Shown piece after piece: positions 1,127-17,898 of a stretch of DNA of 32,082 nucleotides. Location: assembly GCA_030917685.1 (NCBI GenBank), contig JAUPUG010000016.1, positions 1 through 32,082 on the forward strand, read 5' to 3'. Numbering within the stretch: position 1 is the stretch's first letter; every line of letters starts with the position of its first letter. The position numbers and the translations under genes were made by a program. This DNA comes from Patescibacteria group bacterium (GTDB taxonomy: Bacteria > Patescibacteriota > Minisyncoccia > Phycocordibacterales > CAIZLB01). A model generated the notes under the pieces. It was not told where the DNA came from and made no database searches. It worked only from the letters and a program-made list of their open reading frames with translations.

Positions 1127-1867
1127 TTAGTTCATCTTAGAGCTAAGAGTTTTAACAATTTCTTCAGGAGCAGTCATAACAACATACTTGTACTGAAGAA
1201 GCGCGAGTGGGTTGATGTTTCGAACCTCCATCACCTCCAAGTTACCCATATTTTGGAATCCAAGCTTAACGTTTGTATCAAGTGTTGGAACCGCAATAAG
1301 TGCAGCATTGTTTCGTCGCTTTGAAAGCATTTCAAAACCTTCAATTGTTCCTAGTTTAGAAAGAGCTACTCGAGCATCTTTCGTCTTAGGTGTAGAAAGT
1401 GCAAGTGAATTCAAGAATAGTACTTCTCCATCTCGTAGTTTCTGAGAAAGAATAGTATAAATTGCCTTCACCTTCATTTTCTTGTTTACTTTTCGGTCGT
1501 AATTCTTGTCATTTCGAGGACCGTGTGCAACACCTCCACCAACCCAGATCGGAGATCGAGTTGATCCGTGTCGTGCACGACCAGTACCTTTTTGTGCCCA
1601 AGGTTTTTTACCTCCTCCGCTTACATCTGCTCTACTTTTTGTATGAGCAACAGATTGACGCGCAGAACTTCGCATAGATTGTACAACTTGGTGTACAAGG
1701 TCAGCGTTCCAGTTGAGTCCGAAGATTTCTCCCGGAGCTTCAAATGTAGATGTACTCTTACCATTTTGGTCGAATACCTTCACTTCTACATTTTTCAACT
1801 CAGACTTTTTGTCAGACTTCTTGCCGTCTTTTTTCTTTTCTATTTTTTTAGCAAAATCTTTAGCCAT
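1127..1867 (-). CDS. rplD: 50S ribosomal protein L4 with Lys-rich N-terminal extension
   Basis: 246 aa; RSSARQSVAHTKSRADVSGGGKKPWAQKGTGRARHGSTRSPIWVGGG is an L4 signature. Confidence 0.95.
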   Translation of the reverse strand: MAKDFAKKIEKKKDGKKSDKKSELKNVEVKVFDQNGKSTSTFEAPGEIFGLNWNADLVHQVVQSMRSSARQSVAHTKSRADVSGGGKKPWAQKGTGRARHGSTRSPIWVGGGVAHGPRNDKNYDRKVNKKMKVKAIYTILSQKLRDGEVLFLNSLALSTPKTKDARVALSKLGTIEGFEMLSKRRNNAALIAVPTLDTNVKLGFQNMGNLEVMEVRNINPLALLQYKYVVMTAPEEIVKTLSSKMN

Positions 1868-1895
1868 AAATTTATTTGATGATTAGTGAAGTATA

Positions 1896-2495
1896 TTATC
1901 CCTGTATTTCAACAAGAGTACCGCGTCGACCTGGAACTGCACCACGGATGTAAACTTCTTTTGTATCTTTGTCGTAAGCCATAACAACGAGATTTTTAAC
2001 AGTTACTCGATCACCACCCATTCGGCCTGGCATTCGTGTTCCTTTGAAAACTCGCTGATATCCACCGGCACCAATAGAACCTGGTTCTCGCTCAGAGTGT
2101 TTCTGACCGTGAGACCGTGGTCCACCATGGAACCCATGTCGCTTTACTACACCTTGGAAACCTTTTCCTTTTGATATAGCAGATACCACAACAACGTCAC
2201 CAGCTTCTAAAGTAGATTCTACTTTATCACCGAGAGCTCCTTCAGTAACACCAGCAATCTCTTTGAGATGTCGGAAATTACCAAGATCCTTCATATGACC
2301 TTTTTGCGCTTTGTTAATGTTTTTTTCTTTTTTTGTTCCAAAACCAACCTGGATAGCCTCGTACCCATCCTTGAGTTTTGTCTTTACCTGAGTAACAACC
2401 AAGTCCTCTGCCTTTACGACAGTAACTGGATGTACTTTGCCCTCCTCATCGAAGAGCTGTGTCATATTCTGTTTTGTTCCAAGAATGAATTTCAT
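1896..2495 (-). CDS. rplC: 50S ribosomal protein L3
   Basis: 199 aa; GKGFQGVVKRHGFHGGPRSHGQKHSEREPGSIGAGGYQRVFKGTRMPGRMGG. Confidence 0.96.
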   Translation of the reverse strand: MKFILGTKQNMTQLFDEEGKVHPVTVVKAEDLVVTQVKTKLKDGYEAIQVGFGTKKEKNINKAQKGHMKDLGNFRHLKEIAGVTEGALGDKVESTLEAGDVVVVSAISKGKGFQGVVKRHGFHGGPRSHGQKHSEREPGSIGAGGYQRVFKGTRMPGRMGGDRVTVKNLVVMAYDKDTKEVYIRGAVPGRRGTLVEIQG

Positions 2496-3026: not shown

Positions 3027-4220
3027 CTACGCAACAATCTTTGTTACAACACCCGCACCTACAGTTTTACCACCTTCTCGGATAGCAAATCGCTGTTTGT
3101 CTTCAAGAGCAATAGGAGCGATGAGTTTAACTTTGAATGTAACTGTATCTCCAGGCATAACCATTTCTACTCCTGCAGCAAGAGTTACTTCTCCAGTAAC
3201 GTCTGTTGTTCGTACGTAGAACTGTGGCTTGTAACCTGTGAAGAATGGAGAGTGTCGACCACCTTCTTCCTTCTTGAGAATATACACTTCAGCTTCAAAC
3301 TCTGTATGAGGTTTAACTGAACCTGGCTTACAGATAACCTGTCCTCGTGTGAGGTCTTCTTTCTTTGCAGATCGGAGTAGGATACCCGCGTTGTCTCCAG
3401 CCATACCTTCGTTAAGTTGCTTATTGAACATTTCAATACCTGTAACAGTAGTTGAAGTTGTATCTTTAAGACCTACGATTTCGATAGTTTCACCAACTTT
3501 GATGATACCTCGTTCGATTTTACCTGTAACTACAGTTCCTCGTCCTTCGATAGAGAAGATGTCTTCAATAGGCATAAGGAAAGGTTTGTCAGTTTCTCGA
3601 ACAGGAACTGGGATGTAAGTATCAAGAGCGTCAGCAAGTTCTAGAACTTTCTTTGACCACTCATCATCATTACTTGTTGCTTCGAGAGCCTTTAGAGCTG
3701 AACCTCGAATAACTGGAGCGTTTTCATCGAAACCGTTCTTCGCAAGGAGTTCTCGGATTTCTGCTTCTACGAGGTCGAGCATATCTGCATCGTCCACCAT
3801 ATCGCATTTGTTAAGGAAAACTACAATCTTTGGCACACCTACCTGCTTAGCCAAGAGAACGTGTTCTCGTGTCTGTGGCATAGCTCCATCAGTTGCTGCT
3901 ACTACGAGTACAGCACCATCCATCTGAGCTGCACCAGTAATCATGTTCTTGATATAGTCGGCGTGACCTGGTGCGTCAATGTGAGCATAGTGTCGCGCGT
4001 CTGTAGCGTACTCTGAGTGAGAAAGAGAGATAGTAATACCTCGAGCTTTTTCTTCAGGAGCCTTGTCGATGTCTCCAACAGCCTTAAGTGTAACTTGCTT
4101 ACCCGCTCGGTGAAGAACGTTAAGAATAGCTGCTGTAAGAGTTGTCTTTCCGTGGTCTACGTGACCAATTGTACCTACGTTTAAGTGAGGTTTTGACCGG
4201 TCAAAAACTTCTTGTGCCAT
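3027..4220 (-). CDS. tuf: Elongation factor Tu
   Basis: 397 aa; [47 protein letters not shown]. Confidence 0.98.
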
Positions 4221-4513
4221 ATGTTTGTTGTGTAATTGCTATCTCAAGCCGGTGTGAATGAAGCGATATTTTGCTCATCTCTACAGACTCAAGTTCCCAA
4301 TTACGATTTGGTTATTTTTTATTAAACTTTATCTACAGTGCTTTAATGGCTTAGAATAAGGATGATTTGCAAACTTCCGTTTATTTCGAAAATAATCCCT
4401 ACTCGACTCATCAAAGATTCCAGATAAAAAAAGCGCCAATGCGCGATGTAAAGATAGTATCAAATAAGTGTAGGATGTCAATGAAATTACTAGGTAAAAG
4501 TATAAAACTAAAA

Positions 4514-4609
4514 CTCGCCACACTCACAAATTTTCGGTTTGTTCTCTATGTAGGGCACTTGGGGTGCACATAGAGACGCTATTCCGAAAGATTTGCAAGA
4601 TGTGGCGAG
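4514..4609 (-). other. Nested stem-loop structure, possible terminator or structured RNA
   Basis: CTCGCCACA 4514-4522/TGTGGCGAG 4601-4609; CAAAT 4527-4531/ATTTG 4591-4595; TTTCGG 4532-4537/CCGAAA 4584-4589; CTCTATGT..GCAC/GTGC..ACATAGAG 4544-4575; minus-strand 3' flank TTTTAGTTTTATACTTTT. Confidence 0.75.
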
Positions 4610-4628
4610 ATGACTGACACAGGGTTTC

Positions 4629-5078
4629 TCAGGTCATTTCTTGGACCTGACCAGCGGCAGCTTTGGAGACGCCGGGGTTATCCGGTGCTGGCATGTGCCA
4701 GGCCGGGCGCGCCGTGTTCTTGACGAAGCCTACTGAAGCAGGGTTGTCCGGACCAGGCGGGGCTGTCGGCGGCTGAGATGCGACGGCGCAAATGAGAGAG
4801 GTCTCGACGACCTGCACTCGATAGGCGGCGGCTTTCCAGTGGGCCGGGGAACCATCAGCGACCTTGGTCACAGCAATCGCTCGGGCGTCACGTGGGACGT
4901 CGAGCAGGCTGAAGGATGGGGCCGCGTTGAAGTCGGCGACTTCGATGTTGATTTGAGGAGCCGTGATTTGCACGACTTTCTCAATACCGTCAGCTTGGGA
5001 GCTGACAGTTCGTTCCGGGGCGGCTTGGAGGCACGCGACGGACACAGCGACTAGCATGAGCGCGAGGATGCGTTTCAT
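4629..5078 (-). CDS. Small putative secreted protein in a GC-rich segment
   Basis: 149 aa; N-terminal MKRILALMLVAVSVACLQAAPE resembles a signal peptide; Pro/Ala-rich C-terminus; much higher GC than flanks; no family recognised. Confidence 0.5.
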   Translation of the reverse strand: MKRILALMLVAVSVACLQAAPERTVSSQADGIEKVVQITAPQINIEVADFNAAPSFSLLDVPRDARAIAVTKVADGSPAHWKAAAYRVQVVETSLICAVASQPPTAPPGPDNPASVGFVKNTARPAWHMPAPDNPGVSKAAAGQVQEMT

Positions 5079-5156
5079 AGTATGCGGGTGTGTTTGTTGG
5101 GTGTGGGTTTGCCAGATCGATTAGACCATGTGGTTTCCTCGACTTGGACATTTGTG

Positions 5157-5197
5157 CGCTGAGTGTCTACCCAGCGAAATTTTTGCGGTTACGCAAA
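5157..5197. other. Pair of short hairpins at the right edge of the GC-rich segment
   Basis: CGCTGAGT-GTCT-ACCCAGCG (5157-5176, one G-U equivalent) and TTTGCG-GTTA-CGCAAA (5182-5197). Confidence 0.6.
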
Positions 5198-5325
5198 GAA
5201 TCACTAAGACTCATTAGATACTAATTGTATACCCGCTAAATTAAAAATCAATAGTTTTCCACAGGTAAACAGTGCAAAACTTCAAAGGGAATTGAGCCCA
5301 ATCAAAAAAAGCTTTTAGAATATAT

Positions 5326-6921
5326 TTAACTCAAAGCTTCGAGCACCGCAATCAACTTTTCATGAATTCCATCGAATGATCCATTACTCATAATTACTAG
5401 TACATCACCAGGTACAGCTTTAGCAGCAATTTTTTCAATAGCCTCATGACCGTTTTTAACACAAACAGCATAAAAGTCTTTATTTAAAGCCGTATTCTTT
5501 GAAGTCTCTACTACCACATTTCCATCAATAAAGTCTGCTGGATTATCATTATGACGAAGTTCTGGCATCGAAAGCACCAAACCATCTACTTTTTCAAAAG
5601 CTGTTCCGTAGTCAGACTCAAACATTTTCTTTCGACTTGTATTTGATCTCGGCTCAAATATTGCAAAAATTCTATTATTAGGAAAATGTTCCCGAATACC
5701 ACCTAAAGTCTCTCGAACTGCAGTTGGATGATGTGCAAAATCATCTATAACAGTTATTCCATTCACAACAGCACGAACTTCTTGTCGGCGTTTCATTCCA
5801 TTAAAAGTAGCTAGACCCTTTTTTATTTCATCAAATGATAAACCTTGGTGAAGTGACACCGCAACCACAGCAAGAGTGTTTGCTAAATTATATTTTCCAA
5901 AAAGTTGTATATTCATTTCACCTAGAGTCTCCCCTTTGTACATGAGACTAAAAGTCTGTCCTTTAGTATCTACAACAATGTCCTTTGCTGTAACATCATT
6001 CCCCTCCTCAAATCCATAATATAGGACAACAGCCGATGTGTGAGTCGCCAAACTTCGGACCTCGTCTGAGTCTCCATTAAGGACAAGTAGTCCACCATTT
6101 TCTGAAGAGACCACTTCCTCAGCCAAAAAGACAAATGATTTCTTGTACTCATCAAAGTCAGAGTATATGTCCGCATGATCAAACTCGAGAGAAGTCACAA
6201 CAGAAACCTTTGGCTTATAGTGTAGAAATTTTGGCGCTTTATCGAAGTAGGCAGTATCGTATTCGTCTCCCTCTATAATAAAATGTTTTGATTCAGATAA
6301 AGTTCCATTTTTGTCTTTTACCCCTGCGCTAAAGCTTGTCTCTGTGATTCCGTTGGATGTCGGCACAGCAACACCCCCAACCAAAAACCCTGGATTACGT
6401 CCCGCGCTCAAAAAGACATGTGCACATAAACCTGTAGTAGTTGTTTTTCCATGAGTACCACAAATTACTATTGATGTTTTGTCTTTTATAAAAAATTCAG
6501 ATATCGCTTCAGACATTGAAAGTTGTGGAAGATTTTCTTCTCGGACATATGAAACTTCAGGATTACTATCTGGACCAAACATATTTGCAACAATTGTGAG
6601 ATCTTTATCTTTTACATTATCTTCAGAAAAACCTTCGTAAAATTTTATATTCAATCTTTCTATCAAATCACTTGCTGGTGGATAACATCCTGTATCTGAA
6701 CCAGAGACGTCATACCCTTCTTCAGCAAAGAGTCCTGCAAGCGAAGATGTTGCCTTTCCACACACACCTGTGATGTGTACTTTTTTTATTTCACCACTAG
6801 CGACTTTTTTAGAAATAGAATCTAAGTAAGGACGTGAGAATGTACGTTTCTCGAGAGTGTTTGTTTCCTTACCCACTCTTTCGGTTTTTAATTTAAAAAA
6901 GTTTTGTGCGTCTGTTTTCAT
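5326..6921 (-). CDS. mpl: Mur ligase family, Mpl-like (UDP-MurNAc-tripeptide ligase type)
   Basis: 531 aa; HITGVCGKATSSLAGLFAEEGYDVSGSDTGCYPPASDLIE, GTHGKTTTTGL, DDFAHHPTAVRETL (Mpl-type rather than MurC-type). Confidence 0.78.
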   Translation of the reverse strand: MKTDAQNFFKLKTERVGKETNTLEKRTFSRPYLDSISKKVASGEIKKVHITGVCGKATSSLAGLFAEEGYDVSGSDTGCYPPASDLIERLNIKFYEGFSEDNVKDKDLTIVANMFGPDSNPEVSYVREENLPQLSMSEAISEFFIKDKTSIVICGTHGKTTTTGLCAHVFLSAGRNPGFLVGGVAVPTSNGITETSFSAGVKDKNGTLSESKHFIIEGDEYDTAYFDKAPKFLHYKPKVSVVTSLEFDHADIYSDFDEYKKSFVFLAEEVVSSENGGLLVLNGDSDEVRSLATHTSAVVLYYGFEEGNDVTAKDIVVDTKGQTFSLMYKGETLGEMNIQLFGKYNLANTLAVVAVSLHQGLSFDEIKKGLATFNGMKRRQEVRAVVNGITVIDDFAHHPTAVRETLGGIREHFPNNRIFAIFEPRSNTSRKKMFESDYGTAFEKVDGLVLSMPELRHNDNPADFIDGNVVVETSKNTALNKDFYAVCVKNGHEAIEKIAAKAVPGDVLVIMSNGSFDGIHEKLIAVLEALS

Positions 6922-7093: not shown

Positions 7094-7459
7094 TTGTGTA
7101 AAGAAAAAATAATCAAAGCAGCCAACAACAACACTCTCAGAGCACTTAAGCGACCGGGGTGGAAACTGGTTGCACAGTTCTTTGAGAACGAGGATACGGT
7201 CATGCCAAAGAAAAGCAGCCAAACATCAAGCTCAGTAAGCGTAGCCCCACTCATCAGATCACAGAGCCACGGGTGTTACTGGGACAGAGACAGTCACTCC
7301 TACCTCCCTACTGGTGGAAGTGTGTGGTTTAAAAGTCGATACTTCCAACCAAACTCAGCGGGAGGACTTCTTCCCATTGAGCCAGCATCACCAACAACCC
7401 TGTCTCCAGGTTCGCAGGGGCGCACCAAAAATCGTGCGCCAACGGTAATCTACAGTTAG
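7094..7459 (+). CDS. Hypothetical protein, TTG start proposed
   Basis: 121-aa open frame in a fusA-mpl gap; AGGAA upstream of TTG; followed by a strong plus-strand terminator; no family recognised, non-coding RNA not excluded. Confidence 0.4.
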   Translation: MCKEKIIKAANNNTLRALKRPGWKLVAQFFENEDTVMPKKSSQTSSSVSVAPLIRSQSHGCYWDRDSHSYLPTGGSVWFKSRYFQPNSAGGLLPIEPASPTTLSPGSQGRTKNRAPTVIYS

Positions 7460-7488
7460 GCAACACTGTCTGACTCAAAAAAACTCAC

Positions 7489-7522
7489 GCCTCACCGGGT
7501 TCCCCTGGTGAGGCATTTTTTT
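7489..7522 (+). terminator. Intrinsic terminator
   Basis: GCCTCACC GGGTTCCCCT GGTGAGGC followed by A and T7. Confidence 0.88.
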
Positions 7523-7584
7523 ATAAAATTGCATGACTAAAAAATATTACTTATTTATATATCTCCAGAAGAAGGCATGCAAAG

Positions 7585-7618
7585 AAAAAACCACCTTAAT
7601 TTCTTCAAGTGGTTTTTT
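7585..7618. terminator. Bidirectional terminator between the plus-strand ORF and fusA
   Basis: AAAAAACCAC(C)TT ... AAGTGGTTTTTT. Confidence 0.8.
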
Positions 7619-7663
7619 CTTTTAGATCTTTTATGCAATGTTTCGCATGCAAGATTTTATTAA

Positions 7664-9811
7664 TTACTTCCGACTTTCTACAATTTCCTTTTCAACGTTT
7701 GGTGGAACCACATCGTAGTGATCGAATTCCATAGTCATTGAACCTCGTCCTTGTGTCATAGATCGGAGATCAGTTGTATAACCGAACATTTCTGAAAGTG
7801 GAACCATAGCTCGGATAACTTTATTGAGACCTCGGTCGTCCATACCTTCGATTTGACCTCGCTTTGATGAGAGTGAACCAGTACAGTCTCCCATGAATTG
7901 TTCTGGAGTTACAACTTCTACTTTCATGATTGGCTCAAGGATAACTGGCTTAGCTTTCTTAGCAGCTGCCTGGAATGCTTGTGATGCAGCAATCTTGTAT
8001 GCAATTTCAGATGAGTCCACATCGTGAGATGAACCGAATGTAAGTTCACAAGATACGTCTGTCATTGGGAAACCAGCAACGATACCTCGATCCATAGCTT
8101 CTTTCACACCCTTTTCAACTGCAGGAATAAATTCTGTTGGAATAACACCTCCCTTGATTGAATCGATGAATTCGAAACCAGTTTCTCGGTGAACGTTCTT
8201 TGGAATCTTCGCACCTTCTTCGATAGCTTCGAGAGGCTTGATTGTGATTCGAACGTGACCGTACTGACCTTTACCTCCAGACTGCTTAACGTATTTGAAG
8301 TCTTCGTCAACGCAAGTTCCTTTGATAGTTTCTCGGTATGATACCTGTGGCTTACCTACGTTTGCTTCTACGTTGAATTCTCGCTTCATTCGATCAACCA
8401 TAATTTCGAGGTGGAGTTCACCCATACCCGCAATGATAGTTTCACCAGTTTCCTGGTTTGATGAAATTCGGAAAGTTGGATCTTCATCTCCAAGTTTCTT
8501 AAGAGCAACACCCATTTTTTCCTGATCAGCTTTTGTCTTTGGTTCGATTCGAAGTGACACTACAGGTTCTGCGAACTTGATAGGGTCAAGAACGATAGGA
8601 TGAGCTTCATCACAGAAAGTGTGAGAAGTTTTTGCATCTTTAAGTCCTACAGCTGCTGCAATTTCTCCAGCGTACACCTTCTTTACTTCTTCTCGCTTGT
8701 TAGCCTGAAGTCGTACGATTCGTCCAAGTCGCTCTTTCTGACCTGTTGTTGAGTTGTAAATATATGAACCAGCTTCGATAGTTCCTGAATACACTCGGAA
8801 GAATGTAAGCTGACCTACGAATGGATCTGTCTGAAGTTTGAATGCAAGAGCAGAAAACGGTTCAGAATCTGAAGCAGCTCGTGTGATTTCTTCACCTGAC
8901 TCAGGATCAAGACCGTGTACTGGTGGTACATCAAGTGGAGATGGAAGATAATCAACAACGGCGTCGAGAATAAGCTGTGTACCTTTATTCTTCAAAGCTG
9001 AACCTGTAAATACTGGGAAAATCTTTCCAGCAATAACTCCCTTTCGAAGAGCTTTCTTCAAATCAGCGATATCGAAATCAGTTTTACCTTCGAGGTACTG
9101 ATTCATCATAGTGTCATCGAGTTCAACAATCTTTTCTACAAACTCTGCTCGTCGCTTTGTAGCTTCAGCAAGCATATCTGCTGGAATTTCATATTCAATA
9201 ACCTGATTACCCATTTCTCCTTCGAACTTGTAAGCTTTCATCTTTAGAAGATCAACTACTCCGTTGAAATCACCTTCGTTTCCAATTGGAAGCTGTGCTC
9301 GAACTGCGTTTTTGTTGAGTCGCTCAAGAATAGAAGCGAATGATCGTTCAAATGAAGCACCTGTTCGATCGAGTTTGTTAATAAAACAAATTCGTGGAAC
9401 GTTATACTTGTCAGCTTGTCGCCATACAGTTTCAGACTGTGGTTCTACACCAGCTACTCCGTCGAATACCACTACTCCTCCATCGAGTACCTTGAGCGAT
9501 CGTTCTACTTCTACTGTGAAGTCTACGTGACCTGGTGTGTCAATAATGTTGAATCGGTGCATGAGAGATTTGTCCGTACCCATGTATGAAGGGTTCCAAA
9601 AACAAGTGATGGCAGCGGCAGTAATTGTGATACCTCGCTCTTTTTCTTGTTCCATCCAGTCAGTCACAGCTTCACCTTCGTGAACTTCACCAATCTTATG
9701 TGACATACCTGTGTAATAAAGAATTCGTTCAGATGTCGTAGTTTTACCTGCATCAATGTGAGCGATAATACCGAAGTTTCTTGTTTTCTCTAATGGATAA
9801 TCTCTGTTCAT
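7664..9811 (-). CDS. fusA: Elongation factor G
   Basis: 715 aa; [56 protein letters not shown]. Confidence 0.98.
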
Positions 9812-10734: not shown

Positions 10735-11112
10735 CTACTCTTCCGTTTGCCAAGCGTCTCTTGGAATTGTTCCAGGATTTTTCCTCATACTATTTACGAG
10801 TTCATCAAGAGGCTTCTCGCCTCGACTGTTTCCTGACCCCTTTACAGGTCTGTCACTATTAGACCAACATCTTGAGGCTCCTGCTTCATACCATGTACTT
10901 GATTGACCAGACGCAATCTGATCGTGAATATGGGCCTTTTGCTTAGTCCAACCCTGTGTATATTGCTCTAAGTCTTCTCCTCGTCCAGAATCCAACAAAA
11001 CTTGGGGTACGAGCATACCTTCGTATTCAACTAGCTTGAAAGGGTTTCTTTCTAGATTAGTAGATTCTGGTTCTTGTCCTACTGGGTCTAATGATGGGGC
11101 AGATTCACTCAT
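10735..11112 (-). CDS. Hypothetical protein; start moved from 11127 to the ATG at 11112
   Basis: MSESAPSLDPVGQEPES...; TATAAT lies 6 nt upstream of this ATG, so the 11127 start would overlap the promoter. Confidence 0.5.
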   Translation of the reverse strand: MSESAPSLDPVGQEPESTNLERNPFKLVEYEGMLVPQVLLDSGRGEDLEQYTQGWTKQKAHIHDQIASGQSSTWYEAGASRCWSNSDRPVKGSGNSRGEKPLDELVNSMRKNPGTIPRDAWQTEE

Positions 11113-11166
11113 GACTTTATTATACATCTAACTAGATTTATCGTGCAAATAGTATATTGTCAGGTC

Positions 11167-11994
11167 TTATTTTTCTAGAATGAGGAGGTGATGTGTATCC
11201 TTTATGACTTCTTGGTCAACACCCAGATTGATACTTTCCACCACTTTCCATCCATATCTACTAAATCTATCTTCCCATCCCTTTGGTGTCTCATACGTAC
11301 CAGGCACAGGAACATTATCACCATAATGGAATAGTCTATTGTACAAATAGTCGTTCATAAAGGTCCTTTCATGATCTGTCTTTAGTTCGGATTCACTCAT
11401 ACCTACAGGTACAGTCTCTATAATAATGAGCTTTCTACTTACTATTCTGGAAATTTCCTCTAAAATTTGCTCATTTTGTGCCTCGTGGTGAATAACGTTG
11501 ATCAATAAGCCAGTATCGAATCTATTATCTTCTACTGGTACATGCTTTCCATTGTAGGTATGCATTGGAACAGTCACTCCTTTCGCAGGATAAATCACCA
11601 CATCGTAGCCTTCTATATTCAAGCCACTTTTATCATGAATAAGTTGGGCGATTTTACCATCGCCGGTACCATAATCTACGATTTTACCTTTAATGTCCCC
11701 CAAATACCTTTGAATTTGACCATATATTACATCTGACCTTTTTGAAACCTTGTCATTCAGCACCTGACGGATGCTTATCTCTGTGAAGATAGTGTTAATT
11801 TCAGCCTCAATATCGCCCAAATCCCTGTCTTGTCCAAGTAGGGTCAACACCTTCAGGGCCAAAGCGGTAGATTCTTCAACACTAAGTCCAGTACAAAGAA
11901 ATGTATCTTTAAAGTCTGCTGTTACTGCATTGTATATTTCAGTACTAGCTAAAGCATTTCTTATTCTCTCACCCATAATTTGTATTGTATTCAT
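11167..11994 (-). CDS. Class I SAM-dependent methyltransferase-like protein (alternative TTG start at 12054)
   Basis: IVDYGTGDGKIAQLIHDKSGLNIEGYDVVIYP resembles motif I; RFDTGLLINVIHH; conserved-looking region starts at MNTIQIMGERIR. Confidence 0.72.
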   Translation of the reverse strand: MNTIQIMGERIRNALASTEIYNAVTADFKDTFLCTGLSVEESTALALKVLTLLGQDRDLGDIEAEINTIFTEISIRQVLNDKVSKRSDVIYGQIQRYLGDIKGKIVDYGTGDGKIAQLIHDKSGLNIEGYDVVIYPAKGVTVPMHTYNGKHVPVEDNRFDTGLLINVIHHEAQNEQILEEISRIVSRKLIIIETVPVGMSESELKTDHERTFMNDYLYNRLFHYGDNVPVPGTYETPKGWEDRFSRYGWKVVESINLGVDQEVIKDTHHLLILEK

Positions 11995-12037
11995 ATTAAA
12001 CAGCAGGATATCAGCATTTTTTTGTAATTTACGGATG

Positions 12038-12054
12038 TTGTCGAAATTCGACAA
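12038..12054. promoter_or_regulatory. Operator-like palindrome in the divergent methyltransferase/TrmB region
   Basis: TTGTCGAA-A-TTCGACAA, perfect 8-bp arms; overlaps a candidate -35 (TTCGAC 12047-12052). Confidence 0.65.
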
Positions 12055-14154: not shown

Positions 14155-14349
14155 AGTCTTATTTTAAGCCTATTGTTAGCCAAACAGCATGTTCCGCATG
14201 CCATAGGACTAGAAATAAAATGCTTCGAAAAAGCACTTGTTAGAAGATTACTATATATATGCACTGTAAGCAAGGTTAAACACTTGGCAGAAGCCAGGGT
14301 GAAAGGTTGTCCAATACGGGGGGGTACATCCAAGGTAAATTCCACACCA

Positions 14350-14841
14350 TTACGAATAAGACTCTTCCGCAAAGATCTCACCTTGTGCAACCACCTCACG
14401 GACAGTAAAGACTCCTTCATTTGATAATCTGAGCTTAAGTGAGTCAATTGTTGCAAGTGCATATCTAAGTGATGAGTTAGCCTGTATTTCTTGCTCAGAA
14501 ATGCCTGAAATACTCAAACTAAAAAATATCTCATCCTTTTTCGCCAGCGCAGCCTCTAGTCTACGGAACTCTGAATTAACAGGTATCAGTACATTTTCAA
14601 TAACTTTTATAAAATAATCAATCTTATCAGAACTGTTCAATTTTCTGAGACTATTTTGCATACTTTCACACCCGAGATGAAAATCACCTAATAATTTGGC
14701 AGCCTCCGGGTCAAGCGCTATCAATTTAAAATTTTTAGAATCTTCAATAATAGCCTGACAGTGCAACGCTAAGCGGTCCTTATATTGCAAGAATTCTCGC
14801 TGTTCCTTTCCAAACTCTATATTATATATTTCTTTGTTCAT
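14350..14841 (-). CDS. Hypothetical protein
   Basis: 163-aa ORF; predicted mostly helical by eye; no family recognised. Confidence 0.55.
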   Translation of the reverse strand: MNKEIYNIEFGKEQREFLQYKDRLALHCQAIIEDSKNFKLIALDPEAAKLLGDFHLGCESMQNSLRKLNSSDKIDYFIKVIENVLIPVNSEFRRLEAALAKKDEIFFSLSISGISEQEIQANSSLRYALATIDSLKLRLSNEGVFTVREVVAQGEIFAEESYS

Positions 14842-15894: not shown

Positions 15895-16677
15895 CTATAG
15901 GAGAATTCTCAATGCTGGTTCCTCAATGATTGCATGTCCCGACCCCATTACCACAAATACTGAATTTCCTTCGTCCCATATTTTAACAATCGTATCAATG
16001 ATCTGTACCTCGCGTAGATCATTCTGTTTTCTGGATATTTCATTAGTTATACTATGGAATTGAGAAGGGTCAGTCATCCTACTAAAAAAGTCTTTATCCT
16101 TCTGATCAAAAGGTTGACCAAACAAACTTTCATGAATGTTTTTGATATGCTCTAGCGTAAAATCAGTATCGTCCCAGTCTGTACCTTCCTTATCCCTCAT
16201 TAAAAATTTCTCAATAAATTGGTCAAATGGAGGTTTGTCTTCAAGCCGATTCCATTGTAGCGCAATCTGCAGAGCGTGATGGTATAGAATCATGTCTCGA
16301 CTGAAATATTCATCACAAATCTTCATCTGCTCTTGCTTTCCTAAGCCAGGAATTACAACTTCTATATTTTCCCTTTTTGCCAAATAGGATATGAGTCCTG
16401 ACTCGCCACGTGCTGTGACGGCATGATTCTCATCAAGGAATAGTCCTTCAGAATACACCTCAGCGACCACCTTTCTCCTTCCAGAAATAGTTTCTACCAA
16501 AAAGGATTCCCACTGCTCCTTTATTTGTTCATTCTGTTCATGTTTAGCGTCAAGCGAGTGTTTAGCACCAAAATAGATCAGGATATTTCCTTTGGCTCCA
16601 ATTCTATATATGTAAGGTTGAGGGTAGCTCCTCTTATTGAACTCATCCCAGGGTAAAAGTAGTTCTAAGATTTTCAC
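15895..16677 (-). CDS. Hypothetical protein with TIKI/TraB-like GxxH motifs; GTG start proposed
   Basis: Two GxxH motifs: YFGAKH near the N-terminus and MGSGH near the C-terminus, plus VVAEV; TATACT 6 nt upstream of GTG 16677. Confidence 0.45.
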   Translation of the reverse strand: MKILELLLPWDEFNKRSYPQPYIYRIGAKGNILIYFGAKHSLDAKHEQNEQIKEQWESFLVETISGRRKVVAEVYSEGLFLDENHAVTARGESGLISYLAKRENIEVVIPGLGKQEQMKICDEYFSRDMILYHHALQIALQWNRLEDKPPFDQFIEKFLMRDKEGTDWDDTDFTLEHIKNIHESLFGQPFDQKDKDFFSRMTDPSQFHSITNEISRKQNDLREVQIIDTIVKIWDEGNSVFVVMGSGHAIIEEPALRILL

Positions 16678-16713
16678 ACTTAAAGTATACAATCTATGCA
16701 CTAAACAGAGAAT

Positions 16714-17898
16714 CTATCTTCTTAGCAATAGACTATTTCCATCTGACTCAAATGAAATTGTTCCATCAACATCAGTTCTCAGAACTTTTTCAAATTTTGG
16801 TTGATGATTTTTAAACTCAGTAATTGTATCCAAGACTTTCTTATGCGGATGCCCGTATCTATTTTCTTTACCCGCAGACACAACAGCAAACCGTGGTCCA
16901 ACCTCCAAAAGGAATTCTGGCGATGTCGAAGTCTTTGATCCATGATGTCCAAGTTTTAAGACGTCTGCACGAATATCAGAGTATTTTTTAATAATAAATT
17001 TCTCAACTTCTGATGGCACATCACCGGTCAACATAAAAGAAGTGCTTCCATGTGAAAGTTTTCCGACTACAGAATTTAAATTCGTTTCAGTGCTCAAACT
17101 TTTTAGACAGACATTCTTTTGAGGTTTAAGTTTAGTCCCAGTTTTTTTAGATTTAGAATTTTTGCTATTTTTTACATTTTTATTTTCAGGCTTATACTTC
17201 TCCTTTTTCGTACACTCTTGATACGCCTCAATTTGATAATCGAAATCTGGAAACAACACATCAAACCGAATATTATTTTTCTCATCAAGCACTACACTCA
17301 TGCCAGCAGTTAGAGTAACTTTATTCGTACTTTTTGTATTCTTTGCATCAACCAAATTTTCGGCTGATAAATTTTGACTGGCACTGTCAGCGGCGTCATT
17401 AACGACACTCATCAAATCAGCAAATAATTTTGTATCAGAGCCTAAACCAGAATATGCAAAAACTTGATACTGAAATTTTTCAATTGCTTTTTTCATTGAG
17501 CCAATGTGATCTGCATCAGCATGAGTTGCAAGCAATACATTGATTCGTCGATCAAACATACTTTTAAACTTTTGGACTTCGGCTATGACTTTTTCATTTT
17601 GAGGACCGCTATCAATGAGCATAGAATTTTTGTTGGGTGCAACAATATAGATTGCGTCACCTTGCCCAATATTTAAAAAGTGGACTTGGAGCAAGTTCTC
17701 AGATTTGTGATCACCACTGGACAGCACATCCAGTAGTTTGATATTTGTCAGAGACATTAAAACATAGACTGAGAAACTGAATGTGGCACTGGAAAATAGC
17801 ACAGATAAAATCACCAACTTTTGAAAGAATTGCTTGTGGTATACTTTGCCCATTATTAGGGTTAATGCTTTATTATAAATTGCGCGCATTTTGGACAT
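16714..17898 (-). CDS. ComEC C-terminal-type MBL-fold hydrolase with N-terminal TM
   Basis: 394 aa; VHFLNIGQGDAIYIVAPNKNSMLIDSGP, ATHADADHIGS, LKLGHHGSKTSTSPEFL. Confidence 0.85.
   Translation of the reverse strand: MSKMRAIYNKALTLIMGKVYHKQFFQKLVILSVLFSSATFSFSVYVLMSLTNIKLLDVLSSGDHKSENLLQVHFLNIGQGDAIYIVAPNKNSMLIDSGPQNEKVIAEVQKFKSMFDRRINVLLATHADADHIGSMKKAIEKFQYQVFAYSGLGSDTKLFADLMSVVNDAADSASQNLSAENLVDAKNTKSTNKVTLTAGMSVVLDEKNNIRFDVLFPDFDYQIEAYQECTKKEKYKPENKNVKNSKNSKSKKTGTKLKPQKNVCLKSLSTETNLNSVVGKLSHGSTSFMLTGDVPSEVEKFIIKKYSDIRADVLKLGHHGSKTSTSPEFLLEVGPRFAVVSAGKENRYGHPHKKVLDTITEFKNHQPKFEKVLRTDVDGTISFESDGNSLLLRR

Follow-up and report, generated by a model that had tools for sequence, protein, structure and literature searches.

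The window, i.e. the whole stretch of DNA analysed here, is a complete contig of 32,082 nt from a 728.7-kb MAG (79% complete, 86 contigs) with a genome GC content of about 38-40%; the named relatives closest to it are MAGs of Candidatus Paceibacterota and Candidatus Taylorbacteria. The segment under study is flanked on the left by tuf (3027-4220, minus strand), which belongs to the ribosomal cluster, and on the right by a Mur ligase gene (5326-6921, minus strand); judging from their translations, we take other genes nearby to be rplW, rplD, rplC, rpsJ, fusA, rpsG and rpsL. At positions 4610-5175 the GC content is 0.60, compared with about 30-45% in the surroundings, and in 300-nt sliding windows it peaks at 0.65 at 4651-4950, whereas adjacent windows show 0.34-0.41. 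The segment carries a 149-aa ORF (4629-5078, minus strand) with a GC of 0.62 and a GC3 of 0.67. As a baseline, the 96 ORFs longer than 900 nt in 310 kb sampled from this genome have a GC of 0.392 (sd 0.028) and a GC3 of 0.299 (sd 0.042), and the ORF 4629-5078 is the top composition outlier of this sample. Together with the codon usage described below, these values bear out the initial annotation, which had singled out a GC-rich segment between AT-rich flanks, with a codon style of its own and inside the ribosomal cluster, and had read from it a signal-peptide-like 149-aa product of no recognisable family. Indeed, the N-terminus of the product passes a simple signal-peptide rule, and no family match was found for it in Pfam, NCBIfam, PADLOC, PHROGs or the PDB sequences.

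No homologue was found among 60 relatives, and 397 genomes of the order gave only chance-level matches, the best of which has an E value of 0.0017 and spans 60 residues in a frame of 488 aa. Neither a homologue nor a donor was detected in 72,556 plasmids (searched as DNA and protein), 50,697 phages or the GTDB contigs. IMG/VR likewise contained no homologue, its one match, over 27 residues, covering nothing beyond the signal peptide of a protein (L012) that differs otherwise.

Read on the minus strand, the segment has the anatomy of a solo unit. A putative sigma-70 promoter (5224-5251), with TTGATT (5251-5246) and TACAAT (5229-5224) separated by 16 nt and 9/12 matches, is preceded by a GGTA motif, and a GGTATA-AATT -10 region aligns at the equivalent place in three sister species (G004, G005 and G002). 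It is followed by two 5'-UTR hairpins (5182-5197 and 5157-5176; jointly -16.6 kcal/mol, z -3.7 against dinucleotide shuffles), of which the second, 5157-5176 (CGCTGGGTAGACACTCAGCG), is almost identical in G005 though the ORF of that species is wholly different. The leader is A/C-rich and G-poor, with an A+C content of 0.86 in its last 35 nt (5079-5113), where no Shine-Dalgarno sequence was found, and it ends with GGCAAACCCACACCCAACAAACACACCCGCATACT directly ahead of the ATG. Downstream of the ORF, a nested 96-nt hairpin (4514-4609; -47.9 kcal/mol, z -9.2 against the same kind of shuffles) precedes a T-rich tract, TTTTAGTTTT, and has the features of an intrinsic-terminator-like end of the ORF's own unit; a consensus terminator scan omits it, the loop limit of the scan being 8 nt. 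The tuf promoter (4454-4481, minus strand; TTGACA at 4481-4476, 16 nt, TACTAT at 4459-4454) directly follows this predicted terminator and sets the left limit of the unit. It is kept in 6/6 members of the genus, and tuf has a similar TTGACA promoter in genomes of the sister genus g2.

The tuf leader itself contains, directly after the promoter, a short hairpin and then a T-run (4426-4444, minus strand; GCGCATTGGCGCTTTTTTTATC), which are also kept in 6/6 genus members and similar in the g2 genomes. By its position and form, this hairpin would be an attenuator-like element of tuf.

A repeat search, which misses imperfect stems, found no direct or inverted repeats at 4230-5340. No integrase-like ORF was recognised by eye among the listed ORFs of the window, and no recombinase or att-like ends were seen around the segment. 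The hairpins that the initial annotation had placed at the edges of a presumed cassette are real, but they correspond to a predicted terminator and to 5'-UTR elements, not to the ends of a cassette or mobile element.

The slot in sister species

To compare the slot within the genus, the window genome (G000) was set beside five others (G001-G005). The Mur ligase gene adjoins tuf in G004, G002 and G003, while the G005 contig stops inside the tuf leader and retains mur, the slot and the tuf promoter. Identity of the Mur ligase to that of the window is 85% in G005, 79% in G004, 68% in G002 and 66% in G003. In the same orientation as in the window, the slot holds an ORF of 133 aa in G004 (GC3 0.60), 119 aa in G005 (GC3 0.53) and 87 aa in G002 (GC3 0.64), each with a signal-peptide-like start and with a hairpin and T-run at the equivalent place, the sequences of which differ from those of the window. 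The signal-peptide unit is therefore found in 4/6 genus members, and the carriers are independent MAGs, including Gw_Eff_bin_316, Tobar12.5m-G42 and ZLKRG15. The G003 slot, of 540 nt, has hairpins and is without such an ORF. G001, in which the Mur ligase was not detected, has a 189-aa GC-rich, non-secreted ORF on the opposite strand between fusA and tuf. In the sister genus g2, the slots at tuf lacked a GC-rich signal-peptide ORF. As a separate observation, the G003 slot (L016) contains two strong hairpins, one of them a perfect stem of more than 25 bp starting with AATGCACACACGGTGTTTGGGAG.

The promoter region is alignable across the four carrier species. Between G000 and G005, DNA identity is 96% in the promoter and leader of tuf, 82% in mur and, counted on the longer length, 49% in the ORF, and similarity drops sharply at two points, the -35 box of tuf and the 5'-UTR hairpin. 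The ORFs were further compared in six pairs with a codon-shuffle null (200 shuffles per pair). For G000-G004, z reached 5.6 over the whole ORF and 2.9 past the signal peptide, and the protein alignment gave 5.2 and 2.0, respectively. The G000-G005 pair was weak (z 3.1 whole, 2.3 without the signal peptide), similarity in the pairs with G002 was not convincing, and homology of the mature part was significant for G000-G004 alone among the six pairs. The mature proteins align poorly or not at all, against an identity of 68-85% for the adjacent Mur ligase in the three other carriers. The initial annotation had proposed to look for an empty site in sister genomes: G003 does provide a slot without the ORF, but three sisters carry a related-looking, highly diverged gene that is also GC-rich. 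A horizontal cassette is one possible origin of the segment.

The N-terminus of the window ORF resembles a Sec signal peptide, MKRILALMLVAVSVACLQA/APE, with an alternative lipobox SVAC, and is followed by an Ala/Pro/Val-rich mature part of about 130 residues. All four slot ORFs (G000, G004, G005 and G002) pass the signal-peptide rule, which is passed by 9.5% of ORFs and, when the residues of the slot proteins are shuffled, in 2-4% of cases, figures that are somewhat favourable since the cleavage part of the rule was loosened after a stricter A-x-A version had passed only one of the four, that of G005. By eye, a lipobox-like motif is seen in G000 (SVAC) and G004 (AIAC), with none at that place in G005 and G002. 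An AlphaFold model built with the ORF and one alignable relative was uninformative (pLDDT 33). The ORF probably encodes a secreted protein.

Other GC-rich genes and variable slots

In sampled stretches of four species, about 730 kb in all (631 ORFs of at least 70 aa), elements of this layout were enriched among ORFs of high GC3, defined as at least 0.45. A strong hairpin with a T-run within 120 nt downstream was found for 23/44 high-GC3 ORFs and 88/587 others (p 5e-8), an A+C content of 0.7 or more in the leader for 12/44 and 40/587 (p 8e-5), and both jointly for 8/44 and 10/587 (p 8e-6), it being understood that thresholds were set after seeing the data, that the ORF list is mechanical and that the species are not independent. 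The window gene is not counted as a terminator match here, its hairpin being longer than the scan length. Since rank correlations across all ORFs were not significant, the enrichment is a property of the high-GC3 tail, and we regard a wider class of such units as a lead.

Several genes illustrate this layout. On contig C4 of G000 (L050), promoters close to the consensus, leaders rich in A/C and strong terminators accompany a cluster of GC-rich solo genes, which includes one for a signal-peptide L,D-transpeptidase with a YkuD domain (6116-6919, plus strand), one laid out as in the window unit (7121-7651, minus strand) and a lipoprotein-like orphan (14205-14630, minus strand), for which 15 genomes of the family gave no match. 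The YkuD gene has no plasmid match and only distant relatives within the Patescibacteria phylum, and hence no donor. In G004, two GC-rich ORFs with a like layout lie on L047, at 1587-2138 (minus strand) and 16451-17002 (plus strand). Furthermore, a slot whose flanks presumably are trpS and a histidine kinase, as read from their translations, holds a single alpha/beta-hydrolase gene of raised GC in both G000 (L070, 11970-12797, minus strand) and G004 (L101, 1372-2094, minus strand). The two hydrolases are 29% identical, while the flanks look well conserved; occurrence of the same fold family in this slot of both species speaks for in-place divergence rather than for separate imports.

Other gaps of the window vary as well. 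In the mur-fusA gap, a leader (CCAACAACAACACTC...CTGGTTGCA) is conserved between G000 and G005, with GC-rich small ORFs behind it, and the corresponding gap of G004 is about 170 nt long and nearly empty. In the window, this gap carries, at 7094-7459, a second GC-rich (0.50) small ORF (7202-7459, plus strand), with a terminator-like hairpin and T-run at 7489-7514; in G005, the leader is kept (CCAACAACAACACTC...GTGGAAACTGGTTGCA) and the 70-aa ORF is very different. Separately, the adjacent minus-strand ORFs 10735-11127 and 11167-12054 have no match in the corresponding slot of G005, where the flanking matches lie 52 nt apart, i.e. a clean empty site.

Tentatively, we propose that such solo genes could form a genome-wide class in Paceibacterota of this lineage, each composed of a consensus promoter, a C/A-rich, G-poor leader, a GC-elevated ORF and a strong terminator. 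In this class, the coding part would turn over or diverge among sister species while slot and regulatory frame stay, and the GC, mainly C, would be held high in spite of mutational drift towards AT; this is possible rather than probable at present, and the window gene would be the extreme member. No description of such a class was found in the open-licence literature on Patescibacteria, in which horizontal transfer is documented and functions within the hypothetical fraction are described as unknown (PMC12455944). Patescibacteria mostly make their living on other microbes, and few of the proteins at this interface are known; the proposed class may be a fast-changing interface with hosts. The anatomy of a solo unit with an A/C-rich leader, a GC-rich ORF and a terminator would then allow candidate fast-changing exported or accessory genes to be listed from sequence only.

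Origin of the unit and of its GC content

The GC excess of the ORF is mostly due to C at third positions (C 0.45, G 0.22). Valine is encoded by GTC in 13/18 cases and alanine by GCC in 13/28, compared with 0/39 and 1/39 in tuf, and both codons are almost absent in fusA too. Among two-fold codons, the C-ending fraction is 0.86 in the ORF, 0.69 in tuf and 0.60 in fusA. Since this dominance of GTC and GCC is unlike the usage of tuf and fusA, codon optimisation to the host does not explain the GC, and translational selection alone was rejected as its cause. Import or a GC-raising process acting on the coding strand would be its candidate sources. In passing, tuf and fusA (7664-9811) use CGA for 15/16 and 32/35 of their arginines, respectively, which is an unusual preferred codon.

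On balance, we lean towards a resident, moron-like single-gene unit for a fast-diverging, probably secreted protein, settled in one slot of the genus between the Mur ligase gene and tuf. As suggested by the signals described above, its own sigma-70 promoter would drive a transcript through the hairpin and A/C-rich leader into the ORF, and its own strong terminator would insulate the unit from the tuf promoter that follows, so that expression would be independent of the ribosomal operon. If promoter and terminator work and the protein is exported, a secreted or surface protein could meet a partner that varies, be it a host cell, a competitor or a phage, and be driven by it to change. The conserved promoter region and the weak homology of G000 and G004 speak for in-place descent and rapid divergence rather than for one recent acquisition. 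Against such residence, drift to a GC3 near 0.3 would be expected in a genome of 38-40% GC, whereas 0.53-0.67 is seen in four species, and the GTC and GCC choices look foreign beside tuf and fusA. Taken alone, the gene is an orphan; what is unusual is that the slot and the high GC have been kept while the identity of the protein has been lost. Indeed, genes diverged past recognition between sisters should soon gain the AT bias, yet they do not, which leaves either continual replacement from a GC-rich pool or a GC-raising process in place.

Replacement would mean that the promoter and leader are resident, while the ORF and terminator have been swapped repeatedly, by recombination, for foreign GC-rich genes of secreted proteins. 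The sharp loss of G000-G005 similarity at the tuf -35 box and 5'-UTR hairpin fits with such swaps, as do the alien codon choices and GC3, the presence in G001 of a GC-rich ORF of another kind, not secreted and on the opposite strand, upstream of tuf, and the mur-fusA slot, filled in G000 and G005 but nearly empty in G004. We nevertheless consider this scheme unlikely, though it deserves attention: the order genomes, plasmids, phages, IMG/VR and GTDB contigs yielded no donor or homologue, the occupants in G000 and G004 look homologous, the trpS slot holds one fold family in both species, which independent imports would hardly produce, and neither repeats, a recombinase nor att-like ends were seen.

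The segment could also encode a GC-rich structured or regulatory RNA, with the open frame being incidental. GC-rich DNA keeps frames open, and an ATG-ORF of this length arises in 1-2% of dinucleotide shuffles, which makes length weak coding evidence; moreover, conservation is higher in the 5'-UTR hairpin than in the ORF. However, the segment has no Rfam match, RNA structure inside the ORF does not exceed that of shuffles (z -1.2, -0.7), a signal-peptide-like N-terminus stands at the ORF start in four species, and an ORF of this length combined with the stricter signal-peptide rule, which among the four real ORFs only that of G005 passes, occurred in 0/8000 shuffles. An RNA function is accordingly improbable. 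A one-off recent horizontal acquisition in this species alone, to which the composition and the lack of a strong homologue anywhere searched could point, is largely refuted by the sister slots and must be judged very improbable, since like units of equal slot and orientation occur in three sister species and their promoter regions are related. Finally, an assembly join or contamination, which the initial annotation had named as the main alternative and which composition alone would suggest, is hardly credible, as independently assembled sister MAGs share the layout and the promoter region and hairpin recur in G005 in sequence contiguous with mur.

Comparison with known systems

Several known systems resemble the resident unit in part. 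Unlike an integron or mobile gene cassette, the window segment shows no end repeats in the searches made, and no integrase-like ORF was recognised. GC-biased gene conversion could raise the GC of a recombining, diversifying gene, but the excess in the window is mainly C on the coding strand, which plain GC-biased gene conversion does not predict. Fast-evolving secreted proteins and ORFans share with the window gene its restriction to a lineage, its short length, the absence of a family and a signal peptide. Young or orphan bacterial genes tend to be AT-richer, whereas the window gene is strongly GC-richer than its AT-rich genome and keeps a fixed slot and layout.

The closest parallel is given by phage morons, which are accessory units of one gene each that were gained by horizontal transfer and whose transcription does not depend on the phage genes around them (PMC6469090). 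Like a moron, the window unit consists of one gene of deviant GC with, as its sequence signals suggest, its own promoter and terminator, and it is accessory, variable among relatives and located between conserved genes. In contrast to morons, it resides in a chromosomal translation cluster, between mur and tuf, not in a prophage, and has no match in the phage databases; its slot and promoter region persist from one species to another with no sign of mobility, and its gene matches no known moron family. By this analogy, the window unit would work like a moron without being one.
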